Assembly (NCBI GenBank): GCA_016342355.1
Contig: JAEINP010000032.1
Coordinates: 1 to 60,031 of the forward strand
From: Desulfatibacillum sp.
GTDB lineage: Bacteria; Desulfobacterota; Desulfobacteria; Desulfobacterales; Desulfatibacillaceae
Direction of reading: 5' to 3'
Length of the DNA: 60,031 bases
Shown in pieces: positions 11,247 to 28,428 of this stretch (positions are counted from its first letter, which is position 1; each line of letters starts with the position of its first letter). The position numbers were made by a program, and so were the translations under genes. The notes below the pieces were generated by a model. It worked only from the letters and a program-made list of their open reading frames with translations. It had not been told where the DNA came from and ran no database searches.

Positions 11247-12029
11247 TTATCTGGAAGCCAAGGCGGTCATCTTGGAAGTCAGGGCCTTGACCTTATCAGC
11301 CATGGGCAGCCTGGCAGCGATCTTTTTGCCGTTTTCCGCCATGGTGCCAAAGGTCTCCAAAGCGACCATCCCCATATCTTCGACTAGATCGGTTCCGGTT
11401 TCAAGGGTTTTTTTGCCGGACTCCAGTGCTTTCTTGACATATTTCTCGTTGCATTGCAGGGCGGTTATGGTTGCCGTGTCTGCAACCATCTTGACCTTGC
11501 CCTGGATTCCGGCCGTGCGTTCATTGACCTTTTGTTTGCCAAGGTCCACGTAAACAGCGGCAGTAGCCAAGGCTGTTTTGGTCATTTCCTCTACAAAATC
11601 CACTCCTGTGGTCACAGCAGTCATAATCTTTTCATTGTAACCGGATACGGGAGCAGGCAGGCTGTCGGTAACCTTTTGGGCGGTCCGGATAACATACACG
11701 GCAGGGGTCGCCTTTTCAGGCGCCTTGGGAGCCGCCTTTTTGGCTGGAGCCTTTTTAGCGGTTGTCTTGGCCGCGGCCTTTTTGGCTGGAGCCTTTTTTG
11801 CGGCAGCCTTTGCAGCAACCTTTTTGGCTGGAGTTTTTTCCTCAGCCGCCTTGGCAACCGCCTTTTTAGCCGGGGCTTTTTTGGCCGCAGCCTTTTTGGG
11901 AGCCGCCTTTGCTTCTTCGGCTTTTACTTCCACGGCTTCAGTCTTGGCCGCGACAGTTTTCTTGGCTTGTTCGGGTTTCTCTTCGGCGGCCGTTTCAGGC
12001 GCCTGGGTGTTGGTGATTTCTTCCGCCAT
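11247..12029 (-). CDS. Phasin-like protein with histone-H1-like Lys/Ala/Pro tail
   Basis: A 260-residue protein; AAGGAGAAGAACA precedes the ATG. Residues about 20-110 are low-complexity Ala/Lys/Pro with repeated PAKK units (at least four), resembling eukaryotic H1 tails and the DNA-binding tail of Ralstonia PhaM. From about 115 on, an amphipathic helical region (TAQKVTDSLPAPVSGY, 'FVEEMTKTALATAAVYVDLGK', LETGTDLVEDMGMVALETFG) looks like a phasin that coats PHA granules. Neighbouring phaR supports the granule role. A granule-to-nucleoid tether is an inference. The alternative is a nucleoid protein of AlgP/H1 type without a granule role. Confidence 0.72.
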   Translation of the reverse strand: MAEEITNTQAPETAAEEKPEQAKKTVAAKTEAVEVKAEEAKAAPKKAAAKKAPAKKAVAKAAEEKTPAKKVAAKAAAKKAPAKKAAAKTTAKKAPAKKAAPKAPEKATPAVYVIRTAQKVTDSLPAPVSGYNEKIMTAVTTGVDFVEEMTKTALATAAVYVDLGKQKVNERTAGIQGKVKMVADTATITALQCNEKYVKKALESGKKTLETGTDLVEDMGMVALETFGTMAENGKKIAARLPMADKVKALTSKMTALASR

Positions 12030-15607: not shown

Positions 15608-15917
15608 TTGTTTGACACAATTTGGCGTCATTTATTTTCTTCGGGCAACTGTTTCATTTTCAGGGGTTTCTATGGATTTCATATTCTCCGGCGAAGAGGA
15701 TTGCGCAAATTTTCACTTGACTTTTGAAAGTAATCATTGCAAGACAGGGCGCAAATTATGTTGTCGTATGGTATTTGTGAGAACTGTACACTCCGTTCCC
15801 AGCCATGCTGCGCTGACATGATATCCTAAAGTGCTTTCGCCGGATTGGCGGACACTTTCAGAAATGATTACCAACATTAATAGGCGGCCTTTTTTTGTAA
15901 AGGAACCAGAGGAATTG
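15608..15917. other. Intergenic leader of the Ehr-type complex operon
   Basis: About 310 bases before the first gene of the membrane complex. It should hold the operon promoter. A TTGACT at 15717-15722 is the best -35-like hexamer but has no matching -10 at 16-18 bases. No riboswitch or terminator hairpin was recognised and no small gene is supported. Confidence 0.4.
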
Positions 15918-17873
15918 ATGGATACCTATTTGTTTTCCCTTGTCGTGATACTTGTGGGCGGCATTCTGCCTCTTTTTACCTACAAGAAGTTCACCGTGAT
16001 GAAGGCCGCCTGTGTCATCATCACGGCAATAGGCTCCTTTACTGGGTTGTATGCAGCCTTATCCTTTTTGATACACCCCGTTGAAAACGCAGTCATCTCA
16101 TGGCCCTGGCTCCACCATTTCGAGATTGCCCTCCAGATGGACGCCATGGCGGCATTTTTCCTCATTCCCATTTTTTTTATTTGCCCATTAGCCACCCTTT
16201 ACAGCTTCCACTATATGCACCATGAGAAACAGTCGGGTAAGACAGCAATCAGTTATTTTTTTTCGGCTGTTCTTTTTGTGTCCATGGCTTTGCTGACCAC
16301 CGCCAACAATATGCTGACCTTTGCCCTGGCCTGGGAAATTATGTCCCTGTCCTCTTTTTTTCTGGTGGTTTTTGATTTCAGGAACAAAGAAACCCGGAAA
16401 GCCGGATACCTTTATTTTATCTTCGCCCAGGCAGGCGCCTTGTTTCTCTTTGCCGCATTCGCCGTTATATACAGCCAGACCGGCACATTGTCCTTTGACT
16501 CCATTTCGGCCATGCCTGAAAACATGAAACTCATCGCCTTTGTGCTGGCCTTTATGGGCCTGGGTTCCAAGGCTGGTGTTTTTCCCCTGCATATCTGGCT
16601 GCCCCATGCCCATCCTGCGGCGCCCAGCCCGGTTTCCGCGGTCATGTCCGGTGTGATGATCAAGATGGGTATTTTCGGAATTATCAGGTTTTATATGCTG
16701 TTAGCCCCTGCGGGAGAGATTTACGGCCAAATAATTTTGGTGGCGGGTATGATTTCGGGCATCCTTGGGGTTGTCTATGCTCTGGGGGTTCATGACATAA
16801 AGCGGCTGTTGGCCTATTCCAGTGTAGAGAATATCGGCATTATTCTTTTGGGGCTGGGTCTTGGCATGCTGGGTGTAGCCACGGGAAACTCCACCATGGC
16901 GGCTTTTGGCTTTGCGGGCGGGTTGCTGCATGTATTCAACCATTCGATTTTCAAATCTCTGCTTTTCATGGGCGCCGGGTCAGTCATTCACAAGGCAGGC
17001 ACCGGCAAGATCAACGAGTTAGGCGGGCTTATGAAAACCATGCCGGTCACGGGAAAAACCTTTCTTGTGGGAGCTGTTTCCATATCCGGGCTTCCTCCCT
17101 TTAACGGGTTCGTGAGTGAGTTCCTCATTTACTACGGTGCTTTTTACGGATTGGCCCATGGATCGTCGTTTTTGTTGCCCATGTTGACCATCATTTCCCT
17201 GGCTGTGATAGGCGGATTGGCGGCATCGTGTTTTACAAAATTGGTGGGCGTTGCTTTTTTGGGAGAGCCGAGAACCGAAAATGCCGCTAAGGCTTCGGAG
17301 TGCGGCATTGCCATGCGGATATCCATGGTTGTGCTGGCTCTTTCCTGCATTGTGGTTGGGGTCTTTCCCGAACCCTTTGTGCATATAGTCTTCCGGGTTG
17401 TTTCCGGGTTGCCAATCGCAGCAACGGTTTCGCCCACTGTTTTCATTGACTTGGTTCGCAATATTTCCCTGGTGGCGGTTCTTTTTCTGGGTATTTTGGG
17501 GATTACCATGCTTTTACGGAAGGGACTTTATTCCGGCAAACCCATGGCCAAGGGACCCACTTGGGGTTGCGGCTTTACCCAGCCCACCGTCAGGATGCAG
17601 TACACAGGGACATCCTACGCCATGTCCATCGTTGGCTTTTTCCGCCCATTTATCCATTCGGAGAACGTATATAGCGGAATTCAGAAAATTTTCCCTGGCA
17701 AGACGACTTACAAAACGAAAGTGAGCGATCGCGCCGAATCAGCCATACTTGAGACAGTCGTGAAGCCGGTTTTCTGGGTTCTGGATAAGCTGCGTTGGAT
17801 ACAACACGGCGAAATTCAGCTTTATATCGCGTATATTGTTCTGGCCATCGTTATATTGCTTCTTGCACAATAG
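15918..17873 (+). CDS. HyfB/NuoL-like antiporter subunit of Ehr-type complex
   Basis: A 651-residue integral membrane protein; AGAGGA is four bases before the ATG at 15918. It has the proton-translocating antiporter core of HyfB/HycC/NuoL: 'ALAWEIMSLSSFFLV', 'KAGVFPLHIWLPHAHPAAPSPVSAVMSGVMIKMG' in pieces, and 'VHDIKRLLAYSSVENIGIILLG' with 'FNHSIFKSLLFM'. These contain the conserved lysines and the histidine/glutamate pair used for proton or sodium transfer. A C-terminal part of about 150 residues resembles hydrogenase-4 subunit B. It is the first gene of a five- to six-gene operon and should form one of the ion pumps of the membrane arm. Confidence 0.92.
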   Translation: MDTYLFSLVVILVGGILPLFTYKKFTVMKAACVIITAIGSFTGLYAALSFLIHPVENAVISWPWLHHFEIALQMDAMAAFFLIPIFFICPLATLYSFHYMHHEKQSGKTAISYFFSAVLFVSMALLTTANNMLTFALAWEIMSLSSFFLVVFDFRNKETRKAGYLYFIFAQAGALFLFAAFAVIYSQTGTLSFDSISAMPENMKLIAFVLAFMGLGSKAGVFPLHIWLPHAHPAAPSPVSAVMSGVMIKMGIFGIIRFYMLLAPAGEIYGQIILVAGMISGILGVVYALGVHDIKRLLAYSSVENIGIILLGLGLGMLGVATGNSTMAAFGFAGGLLHVFNHSIFKSLLFMGAGSVIHKAGTGKINELGGLMKTMPVTGKTFLVGAVSISGLPPFNGFVSEFLIYYGAFYGLAHGSSFLLPMLTIISLAVIGGLAASCFTKLVGVAFLGEPRTENAAKASECGIAMRISMVVLALSCIVVGVFPEPFVHIVFRVVSGLPIAATVSPTVFIDLVRNISLVAVLFLGILGITMLLRKGLYSGKPMAKGPTWGCGFTQPTVRMQYTGTSYAMSIVGFFRPFIHSENVYSGIQKIFPGKTTYKTKVSDRAESAILETVVKPVFWVLDKLRWIQHGEIQLYIAYIVLAIVILLLAQ

Positions 17874-17917
17874 TGGCGTTTTCCACTTGGCATTTCCCAT
17901 TCCGCCGGAGGTATTGA

Positions 17918-18835
17918 ATGGAATCGATCATAGCATATGGGATAGCGCTTTTAGCTGCGCCTTTATTCCCTGGTTTTATCCTCAAGGTAAAGGCCTTTTT
18001 CGCAGGCAAAAAAGGACCGCCGCTGCTTATCAAGTATTACACCGTGCTCAAGCTGTTCCGTAAGGGTTCCGTGTACAGCACCAGCACCAGTTTTGTTTTC
18101 AGGATGGGCCCCACCGTATCCTTTGTCACGGCGGCCATGGCGTTGCTTTTTGTTCCCATAGCCGGTGCTTCGCCGGTGCTGTCTTTTCATGGGGATGTGA
18201 TCGTCCTGTTCTACCTGTTTGGCCTGGGCCGGTTTTTTACGGTAATCGCGGCCCTGGATACGGCCTCGCCCTTTGAGGGCATGGGGGCTGCCCGGGAAGT
18301 CTATTTCGCCACTCTGGCCGAAGCCACCACCTTTTCCATTCTGGTCATCTTTTTTCGCCTCAACGGAGCATTGAGCTTTGGGGAATTTTTTGCCGGAACC
18401 AATCCCATCACCGTTTGGGGGGGAGCCGGGGCGTTGCTCCTGCTGGTGATCGTATCGCTTTTCATGGTGCTGTTGACGGAGAACTCCCGGGTGCCCGTGG
18501 ATGACCCCGCCACCCATTTGGAACTCACCATGATTCATGAGGTGATGATCCTGGATCACAGCGGTCCTGACCTTGCTCTCATTGAATTGGGCGCCTTTTT
18601 CAAATTGTTGTTTTACGCCGCGTTCATCACGTGCATTGTCCAGCCGCTGCAATTTACCAGCCCCTGGCTCCATGCCCTGCTGTTTTTCGGAATTATGGGT
18701 CTGATCTATGTGGCCGTGGGGATTACCGAGTCCATAACAGCCCGCCTTAAGATGAATCTGGTTCCCAAATTTATTTTAACGTCATTTGCCCTGGTCTTTT
18801 TTGCCGCCATTTTAACCACGAGGGTTGTCTCATGA
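17918..18835 (+). CDS. HyfC/HycD/NuoH-like membrane subunit
   Basis: A 305-residue integral membrane protein of the NuoH / formate-hydrogenlyase subunit 4 family. The N-terminus 'PLFPGFILKVKAFFAGKKGPPLLIKYY' matches the usual 'G..r..qa...gR.GP...q.y' block that faces the quinone-like cavity. 'ALDTASPFEGMGAAREVYF' and 'ENSRVPVDDPATHLELTMIHE' are the strongly conserved loops contacting the peripheral arm. It anchors the NuoB/D-like catalytic module to the membrane. A GGAGG site precedes the ATG, and its stop overlaps the next gene by four bases. Confidence 0.94.
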   Translation: MESIIAYGIALLAAPLFPGFILKVKAFFAGKKGPPLLIKYYTVLKLFRKGSVYSTSTSFVFRMGPTVSFVTAAMALLFVPIAGASPVLSFHGDVIVLFYLFGLGRFFTVIAALDTASPFEGMGAAREVYFATLAEATTFSILVIFFRLNGALSFGEFFAGTNPITVWGGAGALLLLVIVSLFMVLLTENSRVPVDDPATHLELTMIHEVMILDHSGPDLALIELGAFFKLLFYAAFITCIVQPLQFTSPWLHALLFFGIMGLIYVAVGITESITARLKMNLVPKFILTSFALVFFAAILTTRVVS

Positions 18836-19485
18836 TACACTTAACTGACGTCATTCTATCTATCACCATATTGTCCGTCCTTTTGACGTTGGGCTCCAAC
18901 CGGTTGATGGCCCTGGTGAAGATTATTGCCTTGCAGGGTGTTCTGGTTTCCTTGACGCCCTTGTTTATGGAGCACCATGACAAGCTGACAGGGGGTATTT
19001 TGTTTCTTACACCGATAACGGTGGCAATCAAAGGCTTGGTGATTCCCGCATTTTTATTCTTTGCGGTCAAGAAGGCTTCCATCCGCCGGGAGATAGAACC
19101 CATTATCAGTTACCATGCTTCGTTGTTCGCCGGCCTTGCGATGATACTTGTTTCAGCCTTTATTGTGGACAGGCTTCCCCTGAACCTTCCCGGGAGCCAT
19201 GCCCTTTTGCTTATTACCGGTATCACCACCCTCGCGGCCGGACTTTTGCTCATGATGGGGCGGCGTAAGGGCATTACCCAGGTTATTGGATATCTCATGC
19301 TGGAAAACGGGATCTATCTGATTGGAACAGCTTTGGCTAGGGAGGTCCATACCTTGCATGTGCTTGAGTTTGGGATCCTGCTGGATCTCTTGGCTGGCGT
19401 CATGATCATGGGGATTATCCTCACCAACATCAATCGCGCCTTTGATGACATGGACACTTCTCTACTCATGCGACTGAAGGATTAA
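18832..19485 (+). CDS. HyfE-like membrane subunit (NuoK-type N-terminal region)
   Basis: A 217-residue membrane protein with about six to seven hydrophobic segments, as in hydrogenase-4 component E. The C-terminal half 'RKGITQVIGYLMLENGIYLIGTAL' resembles the NuoK glutamate-containing helix (LENG), which takes part in ion transfer between antiporter subunits. 'LEFGILLDLLAGVMIMGIIL' closes the protein. It overlaps the upstream NuoH-like gene by ATGA and is separated from the next gene by only four bases, so the genes are tightly co-expressed. Confidence 0.9.
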   Translation: MIHLTDVILSITILSVLLTLGSNRLMALVKIIALQGVLVSLTPLFMEHHDKLTGGILFLTPITVAIKGLVIPAFLFFAVKKASIRREIEPIISYHASLFAGLAMILVSAFIVDRLPLNLPGSHALLLITGITTLAAGLLLMMGRRKGITQVIGYLMLENGIYLIGTALAREVHTLHVLEFGILLDLLAGVMIMGIILTNINRAFDDMDTSLLMRLKD

Positions 19486-19489
19486 TCTC

Positions 19490-20917
19490 ATGCTTGAACA
19501 TGTTTTCCTGCTCCCCTTTCTGATTGGGGTGATCGTCATGTTTCTTCCAGCCCAGTATGGGCGGGCCGGACTTATAATCGCCGCCGCGCTCCATTTGGGA
19601 CTCACGCTCATGGGGTGGATGGGCAAGCTCAGCCCCGTCACCACAGGATATTTCAGCACGGCGCCTGAAGGGATGCTTGTGCTGTTGGTCACCTCGTTTA
19701 TTTTCATGCTTATTGCCATCTACACGCTTTCCTACTTGCGGGAAACCGAGTTGCGGAATGAGCCTGTTTTTATAGGGTGCATGCTGCTTTTTTTGGCGAC
19801 CATGAGCATGGTGGCCCTGGCCGACCACATCATTGTTCTGTGGGTGGCCATTGAGGCGACGACTCTGGTGAGCGCCCCCCTTATCCTCCTGTCGCACTCC
19901 AAGGCTGCTTTGGAAGCCACCTGGAAGTACGTCATGATCTGTTCCGTGGGAATCGCCCTGGCTCTTTTGGGCTCCTTTTTTATTGTCTTGTCCATGGACC
20001 TGGGGGGAGTGCGGGTGCCCCTGACCTTTACCTCGTTAAACACCGTGGCAAAATCGCTTGATCCGGTGTGGCTCAAGGCGGGCTTCATCTTTGTTATGAT
20101 AGGGTATGGCACCAAGATGGGCCTTGCCCCCATGCATACATGGCTTCCCGACGCCCACAGCCAGGCCCCAAGCCCGGCTTCGGCGCTACTTTCCGGGGTG
20201 CTATTGAACTGCGCCTTTCTGGGCGTGTACAAAGTGCACACGCTCATGGTTAACGCAGGGTTAGGCTCCTATTCAAGCAACGTGCTCATGGGTTTTGGGT
20301 TGTTGTCCATGTTTATTGCCGGGGTTTTTATCCGGAATCAGCACGACTACAAACGGATGCTGGGCTATTCCAGCATCGAGAACATGGGTATCATCGCTTT
20401 TGGAATTGGTGTGGGCGGGTTGGCAAGCTACGGCGCCATGCTACATCTTATCCATCATTCCCTTATCAAATCGTCCCTTTTTCTCTCGGCTGGCAACATC
20501 ATGCTGGCTTACGGAACCAAGCTGGTAAACAAGGTGGGCAAAATGCCTTCTTTTCTGCCCAAGACATTTGGCGTTTTTTTTGCCGGGTTTGTGGGTATTT
20601 CCGGGTTTCCTCCGTTCGGCATGTTCCTCAGCGAGGTGCTCATTATTATTGGCGCCTTCAGGGCCGGGCATTATTGGGGTATCGGATTTTTTATCTTTTG
20701 CCTCATACTCATCTTTGCGGCTGCATCCCGTCTGGTCATGCGTATGTGCTTTGGTGACACCGAGGAAACCATCCAGGTGGAAGAAAACCTCATGCGGGTG
20801 GCCCCTTCTTTTCTTTTGCTGTTGACCTCAATTGTCCTGTGCGTATGGATGCCAGCGGCTTTATACGATACCATACAAAACGCCATTGCCATGATCGGAG
20901 GTGCGTTCAATGGATAA
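19490..20917 (+). CDS. HyfF/NuoN-like antiporter subunit of Ehr-type complex
   Basis: A 475-residue integral membrane protein, the second Mrp-type antiporter-like subunit of the operon. Conserved pieces include 'HIIVLWVAIEATTLVSAPLIL' (glutamate in TM5), GTKMGLAPMHTWLPDAHSQA, 'SPASALLSGVLLNCAFLG' and 'HDYKRMLGYSSIENMGIIAFG' with 'HHSLIKSSLFLSAG'. These hold the lysines and histidines used for ion translocation. It overlaps or abuts the following large-subunit gene. Two different antiporter modules plus NuoH- and HyfE-like subunits point to a complex with more than one ion path. Confidence 0.93.
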   Translation: MLEHVFLLPFLIGVIVMFLPAQYGRAGLIIAAALHLGLTLMGWMGKLSPVTTGYFSTAPEGMLVLLVTSFIFMLIAIYTLSYLRETELRNEPVFIGCMLLFLATMSMVALADHIIVLWVAIEATTLVSAPLILLSHSKAALEATWKYVMICSVGIALALLGSFFIVLSMDLGGVRVPLTFTSLNTVAKSLDPVWLKAGFIFVMIGYGTKMGLAPMHTWLPDAHSQAPSPASALLSGVLLNCAFLGVYKVHTLMVNAGLGSYSSNVLMGFGLLSMFIAGVFIRNQHDYKRMLGYSSIENMGIIAFGIGVGGLASYGAMLHLIHHSLIKSSLFLSAGNIMLAYGTKLVNKVGKMPSFLPKTFGVFFAGFVGISGFPPFGMFLSEVLIIIGAFRAGHYWGIGFFIFCLILIFAAASRLVMRMCFGDTEETIQVEENLMRVAPSFLLLLTSIVLCVWMPAALYDTIQNAIAMIGGAFNG

Positions 20918-22418
20918 CCTCCTGAAAATTGAAAACGGAAAACCCATCGCCCGGACAGACATTCCCAATTTGCCTCTGGAGGGCTTCAGCCAAACCCTTG
21001 TGGATCTGGCCGAAAATGACGGCTTTGTGGTCCAGATGTTTGCATACGAGGACGGAAAGGACACGAAACTGCTGGCGGTCATGCGGCAGAAAAGGGATCT
21101 TTTTGTAACGGGTTGTTCCGTTAATAAGGAATTTGATTCCCTGACCAGCGCCAATGAGAAGTTCCACATGTTCGAACGGGAAATCGCCGAGCAGTACGGG
21201 ATCAGACCCCTGAACCATCCCTGGTTGAAAATGGTCCGTTATCATGCCAACTGCACGGGCGCGCAGGACGTGTTCGGGAATAATTACAAGGAAGAAATCC
21301 CCGGCAACTATCCCTATTTTCAAGTGGAAGGGGAAGACATCCACGAAGTGGCTGTGGGGCCGGTCCATGCCGGGATTATCGAGCCGGGGCATTTTCGCTT
21401 CCAGTGCATCGGCGAGGTGGTCCTCCATCTGGAAATCCAGTTGGGTTACCAGCACCGGGGCGTGGAAAAAATGCTGCCCAAGGTTCCTAAAAAACGGTTG
21501 CCTATTATTTGCGAAACTATTGCCGGAGATACCACCATCGGCCACAATTTATGCTGCTGCCAAGCCATCGAAGGATTGGCGGGCCTGGAAGTGGATGAGG
21601 AAGCCCGTGTGGTGAGAACCATCGCCCTGGAGTTGGAACGCATGGCCAACCATGTGGGCGACCTGGGCGCGTTAAGCGGCGATGTGGCCTTTAATCCTCC
21701 GGCCAATTATTTTGGACGCCTGAGGGGGGATGTCCTGAATCTGTCGCAGGTTTTGTGCGGCAGCCGCATGGGCAGAGGCTTGGTGCGTCCCGGAGGGGTT
21801 GCCTATGTCTTGAAAGATGAGCAACGCCAGCTTTTGAGGGATAAAATCGCGGAGATCAAGCCTGAAATTGAGCATGTTTGCGATCTATTGTTTACGGCCA
21901 ACACGGTTTTGGCGCGTTTTGAAGATACGGGAAAGGTTCCTCTGGAAAGAGCGGAAAAGTTGGGTTTGGTGGGCTATGCGGGCCGCGCTTCGGGTGTGGG
22001 ATATGACGCAAGGGATAGCTTCCCCACCGAGTGCTACGCCACCCTGCCAGTCAATAGAAACACTATGACCAATGGCGACGTCTGCAGCCGCGCCACGGTC
22101 CGACGCGAGGAAATCATGCACTCTTTTTCTCTTATCGAAACGCTGCTGGACCGCAAAGGGGACACGGAAGCTGTATTTATGAAGGACTATAAGCTATCGC
22201 CCTCTTCCTTTGTGGTAACCCTCAACGAAGGGTGGCGGGGGGAAGTTTCCCATTGTATACTTACCGATGCCACAGGGGGGATACTGCGGTACAAGGTCAA
22301 GGATCCCTCGTTCCATAATTGGACCGGGCTGGCCATGGCGCTTCGGAACGAAGAAATATCCGAGTTTCCCCTCTGCAATAAGAGTTTTAATCTGTCCTAT
22401 TGCGGATTTGACCTGTAA
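20910..22418 (+). CDS. NuoC/D-type large subunit of Ehr complex, without nickel ligands
   Basis: A 502-residue fusion of a NuoC/HycE-N-like part (about 1-140) and a NuoD/HycE-like part. CGGAGG lies eight bases before the ATG at 20910. In [NiFe] hydrogenases two CxxC motifs bind nickel. Here the first region reads C201-E-T-I-A-G-D-T-T-I-G-H212 and the second, D465-P-S-F-H-N470, has no cysteine where hydrogenases have DPCxxC. The subunit therefore cannot bind the Ni-Fe centre in the known way. This fits the 'energy-converting hydrogenase related' (Ehr) group described in the complex-I literature. The true substrate is unknown; quinone-like or ferredoxin-linked chemistry is possible. Confidence 0.9.
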   Translation: MDNLLKIENGKPIARTDIPNLPLEGFSQTLVDLAENDGFVVQMFAYEDGKDTKLLAVMRQKRDLFVTGCSVNKEFDSLTSANEKFHMFEREIAEQYGIRPLNHPWLKMVRYHANCTGAQDVFGNNYKEEIPGNYPYFQVEGEDIHEVAVGPVHAGIIEPGHFRFQCIGEVVLHLEIQLGYQHRGVEKMLPKVPKKRLPIICETIAGDTTIGHNLCCCQAIEGLAGLEVDEEARVVRTIALELERMANHVGDLGALSGDVAFNPPANYFGRLRGDVLNLSQVLCGSRMGRGLVRPGGVAYVLKDEQRQLLRDKIAEIKPEIEHVCDLLFTANTVLARFEDTGKVPLERAEKLGLVGYAGRASGVGYDARDSFPTECYATLPVNRNTMTNGDVCSRATVRREEIMHSFSLIETLLDRKGDTEAVFMKDYKLSPSSFVVTLNEGWRGEVSHCILTDATGGILRYKVKDPSFHNWTGLAMALRNEEISEFPLCNKSFNLSYCGFDL

Positions 22419-22442
22419 AGAAATGGGGCGAGGTTTTTCAGC

Positions 22443-23186
22443 ATGTTAAAAGTCATAAAAAACAGAATGGAACAGGGGTGCAAAACTAGCAAGTACCCCA
22501 AGGAACCTATTTCCTTATATAAACGATTTCGGGGGCTTCCTGAAATCAAGAAGAATTGCGATCCAGCCCTGGCGAAACTCTGCGCCGAGGCATGCCCTCA
22601 AGATGCCATTGATCCCAAAAAGAAAAAAATCGATCTGGGACGCTGCACCTTTTGCGGACAGTGTGAAATGCAGTCGGGCGGTAAATTTGTCCATTTTACC
22701 GAGAATTTCGCCATGGGCGCAGCCAACAGGGATGACCTCTGGACAGACGGAACTTTACCAGACCTGGCCGCCCATTCCAAAAAGCATTTTAAAAAGCTCT
22801 TTGGCCGCTCTCTTCAATTGCGTCAGGTTTCCGCGGCGGGCTGCAATTCCTGCGAGGCGGACACCAACGTTCTCAATACCCCGTTTTTTGATTTGTCCCG
22901 TTTTGGAATCGACTTTGTGGCCTCTCCCAGGCATGCGGACGGCGTCCACGTCACAGGCCCCATTTCCCGGAACATGAAGGCCGCACTCCTGACTACCTAT
23001 GAGGCGGTCCCGGGACCCAAGGTGGTCATCGCCAGCGGCGCATGCTCCATATCCGGCGGTCCCTTTTGGGGGAGTGAGGACGTGGTGGGCGATCTGAACA
23101 GCCTGCTTCCCGTGGATCTGTATATTCCCGGCTGTCCTCCTCACCCCCTGTGCACCCTCCATGCCTTGTTGAATTTTTTCAAATAG
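22443..23186 (+). CDS. Ferredoxin-NuoB fusion, small subunit of Ehr complex
   Basis: A 247-residue protein joining two modules usually encoded apart. Residues about 30-80 are a shortened ferredoxin: C39, C47, C51-Pro and then C68xxC71xxC74. This is six cysteines, not the eight of a 2[4Fe-4S] HyfH/NuoI protein, so probably one complete cluster. Residues about 118-247 are NuoB-like: C134xxC137 in AAGCNSCEAD, C201 in GACSISGG and C231 in PGCPPHP, all four ligands of the proximal [4Fe-4S] cluster. It passes electrons to or from the large subunit. Last gene of the operon. Confidence 0.9.
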   Translation: MLKVIKNRMEQGCKTSKYPKEPISLYKRFRGLPEIKKNCDPALAKLCAEACPQDAIDPKKKKIDLGRCTFCGQCEMQSGGKFVHFTENFAMGAANRDDLWTDGTLPDLAAHSKKHFKKLFGRSLQLRQVSAAGCNSCEADTNVLNTPFFDLSRFGIDFVASPRHADGVHVTGPISRNMKAALLTTYEAVPGPKVVIASGACSISGGPFWGSEDVVGDLNSLLPVDLYIPGCPPHPLCTLHALLNFFK

Positions 23187-23269: not shown

Positions 23270-24691
23270 TTAAGGGGTGATACTAATAGTGGGGTACATC
23301 CCCCTCATGTCCCCTTCCGGGTATGGCTCAATGAGGTTGTAGGAAATGTTGCGGCCCATTTGGGCATGGCCGGATTGTTCGCCTGCCTGAAAATAGGCGC
23401 CATTGGCCTCCAAAATATGATCGATACGTTGGGCGAAGGCTTTCACAAAGGCCCGGCCGCTTCCTGAAAAATGCATATTTCCCATGGCCAGATCCCCTTC
23501 CACTTTAATAAAATCTTCCATGGACAGGCTGTTTTCCTCAAAATCCTTTTGATTGCGGATATACCCCCACACAAAATGGGCGTCGGGAATGGTAAGAGGT
23601 TCTTCCAGGTCCATGATGGTGTGGGGCATGACCACGCAGTTTTTACCCACGGTGAGAGGGGATTTTTCGGATCCGCGTAAAAAGGCGTTGAAACCTACAA
23701 ATCCGTCTTCTCCTAATGTCGCGTGGATCACCTTGCCCCCATGGGCCGTCACATTGTTGCCCATGAGGTGGGAGTCAATGATATAACAGTTCTCCTGGGC
23801 GTTGGCCCCTTTTCCCATGGTGGAATCCTCAATATAGGCGCGTTGGGCTATCAAAACGTTTTCCCCGATATGGACATCTCCCTTGATGACGGCATACCGG
23901 GAAACCGCTGCGGATTCCAACATAAGCCGGGCCTGGCCAAATTGAACGCGGCCAAACACCTCCCAAAAATCCCCCTGGCGTTGTTCCACAAAGTCTATCA
24001 ACAATCCGCTGGGCTGTTCCTCTTTGTTCATTTGGATATATTTAGGCAATATTTCCGTGGGAAACTGATAGACAAAATCAAAATCCTCTCCCGACCGAAT
24101 CCAGACCTCGCCGGGACCAACCAGTTCGTGATTCAACTCCCCCACCTGGACATAGGCGAATTCCCCGATCACGCAATCATGGGCTGTGGTCAGATCCACA
24201 GTGGCGTAAGGCCCTAAAAAACAACCGCGCAGGGGAGACCCATGGATGTTGGCGTAGTGCATGGAAATGGTGTTTCTGATTCCAAATTCCCCAAGATCTT
24301 CCGGATCATGGGAATAATTATGAACCAGGTTTTTGATGAGAAAGCTGTCTTTGATGTAAATCTTTTCGTCCTTCTGAAGGGTGATTTGGATATCGCCCAC
24401 ATCAATGGTGTCACCTTCCAACTTCAACTCGTCCCCGCGGACATCGGTCTTGTAGATGACAGATCGATCAATATCACAGTATCCCAGAAAAAAACTGCCA
24501 GCCAGGCCTGAACGCTGGAAGCTAAAGGACAAGGGATGATGCTGGGTCATGCCGTAAAATGCATAGAATTTCCAGAAATGTTTTTTGGGTATTATCCCCC
24601 GCACATAGGGGCCTACATCCATGGAAAACTCCCGCAGGTTGATGTTGGTCCGCCCGATGATCAACTCGATCAATTCTTCGATTTTAGTCAT
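23270..24691 (-). CDS. Hexapeptide-repeat (left-handed beta-helix) protein, unknown function
   Basis: A 473-residue protein, long for its class. Two stretches have hexapeptide repeats: 'NIHGSPLRGCFLGPYATVDLTTAHDCVIGEFAYVQVG' (about 150-190) and a longer one about 270-370 ('AVIKGDVHIGENVLIAQRAYIED', 'NNVTAHGGKVIHATLGEDGFVG'). Such coils form left-handed beta helices in acyl- and sugar-nucleotide transferases and carbonic anhydrases. No histidine triad or CoA-binding signature was recognised, so an enzyme class cannot be given. The C-terminus (about 420-473) is conserved-looking but unassigned. GGAAGGAACC precedes the ATG. It stands alone, with a terminator on its 3' side. Confidence 0.78.
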   Translation of the reverse strand: MTKIEELIELIIGRTNINLREFSMDVGPYVRGIIPKKHFWKFYAFYGMTQHHPLSFSFQRSGLAGSFFLGYCDIDRSVIYKTDVRGDELKLEGDTIDVGDIQITLQKDEKIYIKDSFLIKNLVHNYSHDPEDLGEFGIRNTISMHYANIHGSPLRGCFLGPYATVDLTTAHDCVIGEFAYVQVGELNHELVGPGEVWIRSGEDFDFVYQFPTEILPKYIQMNKEEQPSGLLIDFVEQRQGDFWEVFGRVQFGQARLMLESAAVSRYAVIKGDVHIGENVLIAQRAYIEDSTMGKGANAQENCYIIDSHLMGNNVTAHGGKVIHATLGEDGFVGFNAFLRGSEKSPLTVGKNCVVMPHTIMDLEEPLTIPDAHFVWGYIRNQKDFEENSLSMEDFIKVEGDLAMGNMHFSGSGRAFVKAFAQRIDHILEANGAYFQAGEQSGHAQMGRNISYNLIEPYPEGDMRGMYPTISITP

Positions 24692-25018: not shown

Positions 25019-25546
25019 ATGAACAATCGCCAGATAGCCATAGGTCTGTTCGCCTTGCTTGCAGGGTCGTTGGTGTATTTGGCGGACAGGCCTCCGCAAG
25101 CTACCTGGTTTGTGCAGGCTTTTCCGTTCAGTGTCAGCCTGCATTCGTATCTTGGCGGATTTCTGGGACCCTTGGGCAGGTATCTCCCCGCATTCGTGCA
25201 TGTTTTTGCCCTGGCCCTGGTCACGGGAGGCTTTTTGGGAGGGGGCATGGTACGGCGGTTGTCAGCCTGCCTTTTTTGGCTTGCCACAGATCTTGCCTTT
25301 GAATTCGGACAGAAATTTCCGGAACAGGCCACAAGCCTTGTCCCGGATTGGTTTTCCCATATTCCTTTTTTGGATCAGACATCCCGCTATTTTATTAACG
25401 GCAGCTATCATCCCCTGGACGTGTTGGCCACAGTACTGGGAGCTTTGGCTGCCTACGGCGTTTTATTAATAACGGAAAAACCCCTATTTTCCAAAAACCC
25501 CAACACCGTTAACCCCAAACAAGACAAACAGGAGGGCTGGACATGA
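25019..25546 (+). CDS. VanZ-like membrane protein
   Basis: A 175-residue membrane protein. The ATG at 25019 is chosen because the hydrophobic protein starts there (MNNRQIAIGLFALLAGSLVYL) and a promoter maps just upstream; an in-frame start at 24926 would fall inside that promoter. About four hydrophobic segments alternate with short loops, with 'FLGPLGRYLPAFVHVFALALV', 'ATDLAFEFGQKF' and 'YHPLDVLATVLGALAAYGVLL'. The E-F-G-Q and D-x-x-A-T-x-x-G-A pattern resembles the VanZ family. No Shine-Dalgarno is obvious. The stop overlaps the acylase gene by ATGA, so the two are coupled. Confidence 0.7.
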   Translation: MNNRQIAIGLFALLAGSLVYLADRPPQATWFVQAFPFSVSLHSYLGGFLGPLGRYLPAFVHVFALALVTGGFLGGGMVRRLSACLFWLATDLAFEFGQKFPEQATSLVPDWFSHIPFLDQTSRYFINGSYHPLDVLATVLGALAAYGVLLITEKPLFSKNPNTVNPKQDKQEGWT

Positions 25547-28428
25547 AACAATTGAAGGGACGATTCTGGCTGGTACGTACTTTGTGCCTGCTTTGCGTGT
25601 TGGCTGTGGGCTTTGCCACAACCATCGCCACCACTTCCAGTGATGATGACGACATCATCCAAACCATTCTAAAGGGCAGGTTTTTAGACACGGCGGTTTC
25701 GGGCCTTGGGTATGCCACAGGTAACAGTTCCGACCTTACCAACGCCGGCGGCAATTTTGAATACCTCAAGGGCAACAAGATCAGGTTTTTCCTTGGTGGA
25801 ATCCAGCTTGGCGGGTGGACCAAAGTGGGAGCCATTCTGACGCCCATGGACTTGATCAACGGCGCCCTGGACTACACCGACGAGGAAGTCACCAATATTC
25901 TCCGGTTCCTCCAAACCATTGACTCGGATCAGGACCTTTCCAACGGCATCCAGATTACCAAGGCCATGCGGGCCAATGCTGCATCCCTTTCCCTGGATTT
26001 CACCGAGCCCAATTTCACGGCCAACGCCCAGGCCATTATTGACCTGATTATGGCCCCTGCGGCGGCAGGCACGTATGCGCTCATCAGTGCCGATGATGCC
26101 CAAAGGCATTTCCGCGCCACCCTGGCGGATCTTTCCAATGTGGAACTCACCCGTGACGCTCTGGGCGTTCCCGTCATCAATGGCCCGGCCAATGCCTCCC
26201 TGTACGATATCTTCACGGCACAAGGCTACGCCGTGGCCCAGGATCGCCTGTGGCAGTGCGAGACTTTCCGCAGGACCGCCAACGGCACCCTGGCGGAAGT
26301 CTTTGGCGCAGGACTAAACGACACTTATATAGATTCGGACATGCTCATGCGTACCACCGGCTATACGGACGAAGAAATCCAGGCCGCGTTTGACGCCATG
26401 GACGAAAAATACCAGACCATCGTCAAGGGCTATGTCAACGGGTTCAATACCCGCATTGACGAACTCAAGGAAGACCCCACCCTGGTTCCCTATGAATTTG
26501 GCGCAGTGGGCTGCCCCGTCACCTACTGGGATGTCAATGACGTCCTGGCCTGGGGCGCCACCATGCAACGCAATTTCGACCCGGAAGGACGCGGCCTCAC
26601 CGGCCAGATCGACAACTTGGCCCTAATTACGGAAGTAGGGCCGGTCAAGTTCAACGACATGCGCTGGGTCAACGATCCTGACGCCCTCACCTATATTCCC
26701 GGTGTGGCGCCGCAGCCGGTTCGCAAGACTGCAGACAGCGATCCCGGAACCCCGAGCGTGGACATCGACGCAGCCGCCCTGGCTCAAACCATGCGGGAGC
26801 GTTACGCAGGCATTGAACAGGGCCTCAAGGACATCAACGCCTTTGTGAAAATGGGCTCCTACGCCTGGGTGGTGGACGGAACCAAGACCGAAAGCGGCAA
26901 CCCCATCATCTATTCCGGTCCCCAGATGGGCTTTTCCGTGCCTTCCATCATTGGCGAAGTCGCCATCAAAGGCGGCGGCATGAATGTGTCCGGCATGTAT
27001 GTTCCCGCCCTTCCCGGCGTGGTCATCGGCCGTACTCCCCATCATGCCTGGTCCATGCAGGTGGGCCACGCCCATACCCTGGATTATTACCTGGAAAACG
27101 TGGACGACATCGTCATGACCCGGACCGTGACGATCAACGTGGCGGGCGACTGCCCTGTGGTCTTTAATGCGTACCGTACGGCTCACGGCCCCATCGTCAA
27201 CCCCATGCCTTTTGACCCGGGCTCCTATACTCCGGACCCCGCCAACCCCATCCTCGCCAGCAAATATTCCCAATGGGGCTACGAACTGAACATCGTGGAG
27301 CCCGTGTTCGGGGTGGATACGGCCACCAGCATGGATGAATTCGGGGAAGCCATTGATAAAATGGCCCTTTCCCAGAATTTCTGCTACGCGGACAAGGACG
27401 GCAACATCGCCTATTGGATGTCCGGCCGCGATCCTGTCCGGCCTGAAGGCGAATGGCGCTTTCCCCAGGGCTACCCTGGCTTAACATATCCCGCCAAGGA
27501 GTGGGACGCCGCAACACTTATCGCCCGTTCCACAGACCGCAACACGGATCAGCATTACTACTGCGGCTGGAACAACAAATCCAACCCCGATTACAACAAC
27601 ACATACAATAACTTCGGTTATTTCTTTGGTCCTTTCCATCGCGCCCATGTGGTGGACGAGTACCTGGCCACCCACGACAACCTGACCTTTGAGGAAGTCC
27701 GGGACCTGGCCCTGAACATCGCCACCACCGACTCCTTTGGAAGTGGCGGCAATCCCTGGGCCTTTGTGGACGATGAGTTCACCGCAGCTGTGGAAGCCTA
27801 CAACGCCATCACCCCCACCCAGGTCTTCACCGACGCCATCACCCTCATGCAGGGCTGGGACGGCCACTTTGTGGACGGCGGAGAAGCCTTCTGGGTGGAC
27901 GGCGAAGACAGGGCCGACGCCTGGATGCTCATGAACGCCTGGATCCGGGAAGTCATCCGCCTGACCTTCGAGGATGAGTTCTTACCGGCAACTTATGACA
28001 TCCAAAGCACCAACGTGCTGTTCAATATTATACTCCATTCCTTCCCTGGCTCCAGCATCCAGAACAACTACGACTGGTTCCAGAACGCTGATCCCACAGC
28101 GCCACAGACCTTTGACGACATTGTGGTCACGGCCCTGGAGAACGTCCTGGCCACTCTGGGAACCCAGCCCTGGGGCGTGGGACAACGCGGCGTGATCGAG
28201 TACAAGATCTCCGGTATGGGCGTGGTGCATACAACGCCCTTCTCCTCTCGCTCCACTTACGCTCATGTGGTGGAATACGGACCTGCCGGTCCTGTGCGGG
28301 TGGAAAGCATGTTCCCCCTGGGACCCAGCGGAAACATTGATTACCAAGGCAATTTTGATCCCTATTTCTTCTCCCTCACCGCCAATTTCGACGCTTTTGC
28401 GCCCAGGGATTTTCCTGTGCCCAAATAA
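25543..28428 (+). CDS. Secreted penicillin-acylase-family (Ntn) hydrolase with N-terminal extra domain
   Basis: A 961-residue precursor; AGGAGG is eight bases before the ATG. Signal-peptide-like N-terminus, then an acidic stretch, then an extra domain (about 45-195: 'ILKGRFLDTAVSGLGYATG', 'NFEYLKGNKIRFFLGGIQLG', 'ILRFLQTIDSDQDLSNGIQI'). The acylase begins near 205 with 'VELTRDALGVPVING' and 'AQGYAVAQDRLWQCETFRR'. Gly438-Ser439-Tyr-Ala-Trp is the self-cleavage site; Ser439 becomes the N-terminal nucleophile of the beta chain. The family hydrolyses amide bonds of penicillins, N-acyl-homoserine lactones or related lipids. The substrate is unknown. The N-terminal domain is seen in other secreted proteins and may bind surface polymers. 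Confidence 0.93.
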   Translation: MKQLKGRFWLVRTLCLLCVLAVGFATTIATTSSDDDDIIQTILKGRFLDTAVSGLGYATGNSSDLTNAGGNFEYLKGNKIRFFLGGIQLGGWTKVGAILTPMDLINGALDYTDEEVTNILRFLQTIDSDQDLSNGIQITKAMRANAASLSLDFTEPNFTANAQAIIDLIMAPAAAGTYALISADDAQRHFRATLADLSNVELTRDALGVPVINGPANASLYDIFTAQGYAVAQDRLWQCETFRRTANGTLAEVFGAGLNDTYIDSDMLMRTTGYTDEEIQAAFDAMDEKYQTIVKGYVNGFNTRIDELKEDPTLVPYEFGAVGCPVTYWDVNDVLAWGATMQRNFDPEGRGLTGQIDNLALITEVGPVKFNDMRWVNDPDALTYIPGVAPQPVRKTADSDPGTPSVDIDAAALAQTMRERYAGIEQGLKDINAFVKMGSYAWVVDGTKTESGNPIIYSGPQMGFSVPSIIGEVAIKGGGMNVSGMYVPALPGVVIGRTPHHAWSMQVGHAHTLDYYLENVDDIVMTRTVTINVAGDCPVVFNAYRTAHGPIVNPMPFDPGSYTPDPANPILASKYSQWGYELNIVEPVFGVDTATSMDEFGEAIDKMALSQNFCYADKDGNIAYWMSGRDPVRPEGEWRFPQGYPGLTYPAKEWDAATLIARSTDRNTDQHYYCGWNNKSNPDYNNTYNNFGYFFGPFHRAHVVDEYLATHDNLTFEEVRDLALNIATTDSFGSGGNPWAFVDDEFTAAVEAYNAITPTQVFTDAITLMQGWDGHFVDGGEAFWVDGEDRADAWMLMNAWIREVIRLTFEDEFLPATYDIQSTNVLFNIILHSFPGSSIQNNYDWFQNADPTAPQTFDDIVVTALENVLATLGTQPWGVGQRGVIEYKISGMGVVHTTPFSSRSTYAHVVEYGPAGPVRVESMFPLGPSGNIDYQGNFDPYFFSLTANFDAFAPRDFPVPK

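Follow-up and report, generated by a model that had tools for sequence, protein, structure and literature searches.

What does a membrane complex built like an energy-converting hydrogenase do once its nickel site has gone? The question is raised by a compact six-gene operon on the forward strand (15831-23186) of contig JAEINP010000032.1 from Desulfatibacillum sp. (assembly GCA_016342355.1), of which we analysed a stretch of 60,031 nucleotides, here called the window. Its genes follow the subunit order B-C-E-F-G-HI (Table 1), with intergenic gaps of 44, -4, 4, -8 and 24 bases if the large subunit is taken to start at ATG 20910, a start preceded by GGAGG. The open reading frame (ORF) of the large subunit is intact and yields 502 residues from this ATG, and an alternative GTG at 20901 would add three. 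Residues are numbered from ATG 20910, and alignment A1 and the structure model used the 505-residue version. Judged from its sequence, the operon codes for a complex of the Ehr (Ech-hydrogenase-related) type and represents a distinct subfamily; complexes of this type have already been described, for example from Geobacter. The Ehr complex itself is thus known, and one of its motifs is corrected below; the new part is a link, seen in relatives, to a protein of the carbonic-anhydrase-like LCIB type, which is worth following.

When the large subunit was compared with PDB sequences using phmmer, the best match was HycE of formate hydrogenlyase (FHL; 7z0s, 138 bits), followed by MbhL and Nqo4, and a Foldseek search with the predicted fold also placed 7z0s_E first (template modelling (TM) score 0.80 by query). 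The protein was aligned with Escherichia coli HycE and HyfG taken from NC_000913, and the HycE numbering reproduces residues C531, D529, R478, S283 and E193 as named in the accessible text of the FHL structure paper (PMC9474812). All four nickel ligands that define a group 4 [NiFe] hydrogenase are replaced, HycE C241, C244, C531 and C534 corresponding to Ala205, Thr208, Ser496 and Gly499, and this bears out an initial annotation, made from the letters of the window, that both nickel-binding cysteine pairs had been lost. In the L1 region the hydrogenase motif RxCGxC reads T-I-A-G-D-T; here the loss had been recognised correctly and the residue quoted for it, C201, precedes the first ligand column by four residues. 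The L2 motif had been placed at DPSFHN (465-470), and this assignment has to be withdrawn because DPSFHNW (465-471) aligns with RAATYANW of HycE, REPTFPNL of MbhL and RAPSFVNL of Nqo4. The true counterpart of DPCxxC, N494-L-S-Y-C-G499, lies in the C-terminal end NLSYCGFDL. Further correspondences from HycE are D529 to Asn494, E193 to Glu158, S283 to Asn247 and R478 to Arg443.

Conservation was assessed in 112 distinct homologues, which are the window's nearer relatives, closer than those at 36-39% identity, and which remained from 113 rows after removal of a wrong-frame translation (L121). Since 80 of the 112 came from a peptide-pattern scan covering columns 151-158 and 464-471, the agreement in those columns is to some extent a product of the selection; the 32 rows found without the patterns all carry I157, E158, D207, S496, C498 and G499 (32/32 each). 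Over the full set, column 205 holds Ala in 106 rows, Ser in four and Cys and Gly in one each, and column 208 holds Thr in 104, Ser in six and Ala in two. I157, E158, G206, D207 and R443 are each found in 112/112 and N494 in 109/112. The C-terminus reads S-Y-x-G in every row, with S496 and G499 invariant, and column 498, which immediately precedes the last ligand column, is Cys in 109 rows and Ala in three. Three of the four ligand columns never hold a cysteine and the fourth does so once; none of the 112 rows has more than one nickel-column cysteine and 111 have none at all. The possibility that the cysteines are shifted yet present thus meets C498 close to the last column, but this is a single cysteine of four and the loss stands. 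Nothing follows L502 in any of the 112 homologues; HycE and HyfG carry 32 residues there, an extension cleaved at maturation, which is a HycE trait and not a universal one, the other two reference hydrogenases also having none.

The family is widespread, with at least 575 confirmed stretches in a contig scan, and among the matches listed the relatives span many phyla. Ratios of nonsynonymous to synonymous substitution (dN/dS) were 0.09-0.20 in the nine homologue pairs with dS below 1. These nine belong to the 20 closest pairs listed for 122 coding sequences, of which the other eleven were saturated or nearly so; 16 of the 20 yielded a value, 0.04-0.20, some repeating one duplicated sequence. 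The window gene has no partner close enough for such an estimate, which therefore covers its homologues; with ratios well below 1, decay is unlikely in the family, in agreement with the initial annotation. C-terminal recoding, considered for 12 homologues with stop codons, was rejected: all 12 ends read to FDL and then stop, and the stop codons presumably lie upstream of the start.

The homologues fall into two groups that we name types A and B, about 54-76% and 43-52% identical to the window protein, respectively. In a tree which is unrooted, carries long-branch warnings and still includes L121, all Ehr rows stand apart from the hydrogenase and complex I references (support 100/99), the type-A set, with two rows wrongly labelled B in the input, is supported at 100/100, and homologues from Geobacter argillaceus and Geomonas fall on the window's side of the division from those references. 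Among the matches listed, those of G. argillaceus and Geomonas edaphica are 47% identical to it.

The two types differ in their iron-sulfur chain. In the small subunit of the window, the proximal-cluster ligands C134, C137, C201 and C231 are intact with the hydrogenase-type spacing C134-x2-C137, and the adjacent cysteine pair of the complex I protein NuoB is not found. The statement that all other subunits are intact holds for these four ligands and is not quite right for the rest, because a cluster of the HyfH-like domain has lost its ligands. One ferredoxin-type cluster of that domain is complete (C51, C68, C71 and C74, in 34/34 distinct type-A small subunits), and the second [4Fe-4S] cluster has D40, A44 and S78 at ligand positions. 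It is intact in 0/34 distinct type-A rows as against 50/58 of type B, counted over distinct loci after two duplicates were removed.

The assignment to Ehr, already made in the initial annotation, is borne out by the absence of the L1 and L2 cysteines, by a group-4- and complex-I-like operon encoding HyfB-C-E-F-G-HI type subunits, two of them, as foreseen, of antiporter type, and by the Geobacter and Geomonas homologues. Missing L1 and L2 cysteines are how PMC6349859, PMC10284858 and PMC4378227 characterise Ehr, to which they ascribe an unknown or suspected function. As reported for the Ehr of Geobacter sulfurreducens (GSU0739-0745) in the part of the literature accessible to us, NuoL-like and HyfE-like proteins accompany large and small subunits with no NiFe-binding centre. 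The window differs from the Geobacter homologues, which are of type B, in being type A and in having lost one HyfH cluster, the GSU sequence itself lying outside the comparison. With hydrogenases 3 (FHL) and 4 of E. coli (HycE, HyfG) it shares the fold, a NuoC-NuoD-like fusion, the proximal CxxC spacing and counterparts of Glu193 and Arg478; unlike these, it has lost the four nickel cysteines, D529 and the extension at the C-terminus, and its operon has no hycB- or fdhF-like gene. The core is homologous to that of complex I, and of two complex I rows in the comparison one likewise has Asn at the canopy position, whereas the window's complex lacks counterparts of H38 and Y87 and an adjacent cysteine pair, and its operon lacks an NADH module. 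Pyrococcus MBS resembles the window's complex in lacking the NiFe site and in its antiporter-type membrane arm. It differs, according to excerpts of PMC7684303, in that its proximal cluster has three cysteines, that two of the four nickel cysteines remain and that the beta1-beta2 loop has no Glu; compared at the level of sequence features, the window's complex keeps four proximal cysteines and Glu158 and has no nickel-column cysteine. The pocket agrees with none of the three, hydrogenase, complex I or MBS, and looks like a fourth kind, which would bear on how a hydrogenase became complex I.

We consider it moderately probable that the complex is a redox-driven ion pump, of group-4-hydrogenase and complex-I-like construction, that works without a [NiFe] site. 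The reduced but ordered iron-sulfur chain counts in favour of such a pump, as do the subunit set and order, the solved relatives HycE, MbhL and Nqo4 and the abundance of Ehr subunits in formate-grown G. sulfurreducens reported in PMC7894505. Starting from the gene content, the loss of nickel ligands, the conserved pocket columns and the purifying selection among homologues, we infer the donor, direction, coupling and acceptor as follows. A one-electron carrier, for example reduced ferredoxin, would first reduce the one cluster that is complete in the HyfH-like domain, and the electrons would then move via the proximal [4Fe-4S] cluster into the vacated NiFe pocket (E158, D207, N247, R443, S496 and C498), where a small molecule would accept them. 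The protons would come from E158, the retained proton-relay residue which suggests proton-coupled chemistry, and the reaction would power the movement of ions through HyfB and HyfF. As a tentative candidate for the acceptor we favour a hydrophobic carrier, for instance menaquinone, bound in a manner unlike that in complex I.

Several points weigh against the redox pump. No donor or acceptor gene was identified in the operon. The column of the quinone-binding His in the beta1-beta2 loop of complex I (Nqo4 H38) is Ile157 and that of the DY tyrosine (Nqo4 Y87) is Gly206, each in 112/112, and the hydrogenase-type Glu158 is kept, so that the complex-I-like quinone site hinted at in the initial annotation finds no support. 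Nor does the structure model resolve the pocket, since the predicted local distance difference test (pLDDT) score falls below 50 at 111-120, 133-182 and 480-505 of the 505-residue version. From excerpts of the published work, PMC6349859 proposes a formate dehydrogenase-Ehr complex, the authors of PMC7894505 see in their formate result (see below) a possible link with the formation of H2 from formate, and a 2026 paper (PMC13194489) regards the Geobacter Ehr as nonfunctional; the conserved pocket and the low dN/dS argue for an Ehr function, against that last view. Finally, the genes found beside Ehr operons in relatives hint at CO2 over a plain redox role.

These genes encode an LCIB-type protein of about 390 residues. 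It matches PF18599 (LCIB_C_CA) above the cut-off in locus L053 and just below it in L039; no PDB sequence match was found. When its model was compared by Foldseek, the first seven places went to a CCM (CO2-concentrating mechanism)-related protein and to LCIB/LCIC/PtLCIB4, with E values of 7e-4 to 0.09 and TM scores, by query, of 0.29-0.40. The mean pLDDT of the model is 69.7, with values below 50 at 45-95 and 122-133, where two of the candidate metal residues lie. These putative metal residues are C54, present in 36/37 rows with one gap, and H106 and C133, each in 37/37. Outside that set, a decaying or altered copy (L081:2675-3820) stands beside Ehr; it lacks the segment of the first candidate cysteine, is 31% identical to the reference and gave no PF18599 match.

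Searches for the LCIB-type protein were confined to the window's phylum, where it occurs in 7 of 395 genomes at E <1e-100 (11 at E <1e-10). Five of the seven also carry Ehr, as against 71/395 overall, two have no Ehr match, and the genes adjoin on one contig in four; the type-B operons of genomes G103 and G247 contain LCIB-regulator-hyfB. Within the class of genome G408 (257 genomes; LCIB matches at E <= 1e-50), LCIB was found in 61 and type-A Ehr in 92, and 48 genomes have the two together (Fisher odds ratio 12.8, p 3e-15, uncorrected for relatedness). In 34 of these 48 the LCIB gene lies beside the Ehr operon, always on the same strand, 30 times upstream of hyfB and four times downstream of the small subunit; all same-contig pairs lie within 7.8 kb, and in the other 14 the genes are on different contigs. 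No LCIB match was obtained in 44 of those 92 genomes with type A, and 13 of the 61 LCIB genomes have no type A. Together with G103, G197 and G247, these 34 genomes bring the related genomes with an adjoining LCIB-type gene to 37.

Ehr with its LCIB-type partner might accordingly be read as a redox-driven system for CO2 hydration or inorganic carbon, by analogy with DAB2 and the cyanobacterial NDH-1MS, which show, according to the accessible text of PMC13144422, that proton subunits of the complex I type are able to drive the hydration of CO2. In DAB2, NDH-1MS and the LCIB-bearing relatives alike, a complex-I-type proton-channel subunit is paired with a carbonic-anhydrase-like protein. The same-strand adjacency, the two type-B operons and the two lines of fold evidence, PF18599 and Foldseek, favour this proposal. 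Against it, LCIB was not matched in the window's genome (E <= 1e-10), where no such partner is encoded with the complex; LCIB accompanies type A in just 48/92 genomes of the G408 class and lies on another contig in 14 of the 48; DabA belongs to PF10070 and not to LCIB; and the fold offers modest evidence, with one Pfam score of a close pair falling below the cut-off, Foldseek E values of 7e-4 to 0.09 and low model confidence around two candidate metal residues. We regard the proposal as unlikely, and equally unlikely its more specific form, in which low-potential electrons passed to the repurposed NiFe pocket of some Ehr complexes, at least those related to Desulfobulbaceae, would power an LCIB-type carbonic anhydrase seated on the antiporter-type arm. 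If it were true, such complexes would be a non-photosynthetic counterpart of NDH-1MS, and that of the window would use another carbonic anhydrase or have shed it. Our searches of an open-licence literature collection listed no publication that connects LCIB with complexes of the hydrogenase-like kind. Alongside the formate dehydrogenase-Ehr proposal, this recurring neighbour offers a gene-context handle on the substrate of Ehr.

Under that formate proposal, electrons from formate would enter through an associated formate dehydrogenase, as suggested for the Ehr of other lineages. Besides the gene context presented in excerpts of PMC6349859, it draws on the finding, in the accessible part of PMC7894505, that all Ehr subunits of G. 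sulfurreducens were more abundant on formate than under hydrogen-containing conditions; higher Ehr in coculture is also recorded (PMC8691401, excerpt). At L041 (11423-14557, reverse strand) a molybdopterin oxidoreductase and a ferredoxin-type 4Fe-4S dicluster protein, possibly formate dehydrogenase-like, lie just downstream of the Ehr operon on the opposite strand. The window operon has no formate dehydrogenase gene, however, and no recurrent extra oxidoreductase was seen in 81 clustered neighbourhoods, not every cluster being annotated, so that for the window's complex we think this link improbable.

A sulfane sulfur reductase of the MBS type, in which the proximal cluster would reduce polysulfide in the pocket, fits the dsrA-bearing host described below and has a precedent in MBS, a relative that lacks NiFe and is built to the same general design (PMC7684303, in excerpt). 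We hold it, too, to be unlikely in view of the four cluster cysteines with CxxC spacing, the empty nickel columns of 111/112 rows, the invariant Glu158 and the many phyla covered by the relatives among the matches listed. Nor is there much to be said for the view that the complex has decayed or has no redox function, as an ion antiporter whose peripheral arm is vestigial: no partner dehydrogenase was identified, one iron-sulfur cluster is lost and the Geobacter complex has been viewed as nonfunctional (PMC13194489, as excerpted), but the homologues show dN/dS well below 1 and conserve both the pocket columns and the remaining cluster ligands. That the complex is a true [NiFe] hydrogenase with displaced cysteines, as C498 beside a ligand column in 109/112 rows and the other NiFe-hydrogenase matches in the host might suggest, is extremely improbable given ligand columns with cysteine in 0/112 (three) or 1/112 (the fourth) and an end at residue 502 where HycE and HyfG continue for 32 residues.

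For the redox pump, the host offers the following setting. Its genome (G000) comprises 5.26 Mb in 142 contigs and carries dsrA (598 bits, above the curated cut-off), consistent with the sulfate reducer assumed in the initial annotation, which it probably is. Rnf-like genes are also present, the rnfC model scoring 191 bits, below its cut-off, next to genes for an RnfD-family and an FMN (flavin mononucleotide)-binding protein, and NiFe hydrogenase large subunits were matched on two contigs. The Ehr large-subunit gene is the sole match in the genome to PF00346 (Complex1_49kDa), as in 8/9 type-A genomes of the window's order, the window's included. We considered Ehr as a plain replacement of complex I and rejected it as a rule, since G050 and all ten other type-A genomes tested carry a further PF00346 match. 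A type-A copy is absent from one genome of the same genus and from 7/7 compared from the same family, three of which carry type B, one as a fragment. The window's large subunit is closer to copies from Desulfobulbaceae and Desulfocapsaceae than to those of its own order, on a weak branch (89/73), and with the missing type A in genus and family this suggests that the operon was possibly acquired by horizontal transfer.

The features discussed are collected in Table 1. The hyfB-like protein scored 583 bits against the 'hydrogenase 4 subunit B' model, below the cut-off of 667, with a match starting at residue 30.

Table 1. Coordinates of the Ehr operon, of motifs within its large subunit and of the adjoining hexapeptide-repeat gene (positions in the window).
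Feature	Position	Strand	Basis
hyfB/ehrA-like antiporter-type subunit	15831..17873	+	PF00361 1e-61; ORF from GTG 15831, likely start ATG 15918
hyfC/ehrB-like (NuoH-type) subunit	17918..18835	+	PF00146 2e-25
hyfE/ehrC-like subunit	18832..19485	+	'hydrogenase 4 membrane subunit' model 3e-19, below cut-off; 4-base overlap with hyfC
hyfF/ehrD-like second antiporter-type subunit	19490..20917	+	PF00361 1e-45; 'hydrogenase 4 subunit F' model 324 bits, below cut-off
hyfG/ehrL large subunit	20910..22418	+	PF00346 and PF00329; 30-kDa-like domain fused to 49-kDa/hydrogenase-large-like domain; without Ni ligands
Glu158, counterpart of HycE Glu193 (proton-relay Glu)	21381..21383	+	112/112 homologues
A-G-D-T (205-208), counterpart of L1 CGxC	21522..21533	+	alignment to HycE C241/C244
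DPSFHN (465-470), element common to complex I and hydrogenases	22302..22319	+	counterparts RAPSFVN, REPTFPN, RAATYAN
N-L-S-Y-C-G (494-499), true L2 DPCxxC counterpart	22389..22406	+	alignment
hyfH-hyfI fusion (ehrS-like) small subunit	22443..23186	+	PF01058 4e-25; ligand columns
Hexapeptide-repeat protein	23270..24691	-	full-length homologue of PDB 3c8v

The hexapeptide-repeat protein recurs near type-A Ehr operons related to those of the window's order (L052, L053, L055, L057, L168, L171, L173 and L174) and is a recurrent neighbour that probably does not belong to the complex. It was found in 36/395 genomes of the phylum, 12 with an Ehr match at E <= 1e-100 and 24 without. A role as gamma-carbonic anhydrase was considered and is not claimed, because the matches are weak (PaaY/CcmM models; 1v3w at 3e-4), a second candidate metal His varies and those 24 genomes gave no Ehr match at that threshold.

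Type-B operons are often accompanied by a regulator with HTH_17 and PTS (phosphotransferase system) EIIA-2 domains, both identified in the two examples scanned, which lies near hyfB, for example at L058:3262-3969 and L159:5836-6519; a same-strand match occurs near the operon in 33/60 loci, a count that excludes L069, L161 and L162, which gave no large-subunit ORF. Its position suggests control of type-B Ehr by phosphotransfer signalling. One further neighbour cluster, present in 11 loci, apparently consists of sensor kinases, as read from the sequences and not from a domain scan.

Two other genes of the window may be mentioned. At 25543-28428 on the forward strand, two genes past the hexapeptide gene, lies a large protein of the penicillin-amidase family (PF01804, 1.5e-94). 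The translated product of 11247-12029, on the reverse strand, has an N-terminus rich in lysine/alanine repeats, which we take to resemble histone-H1-like proteins.

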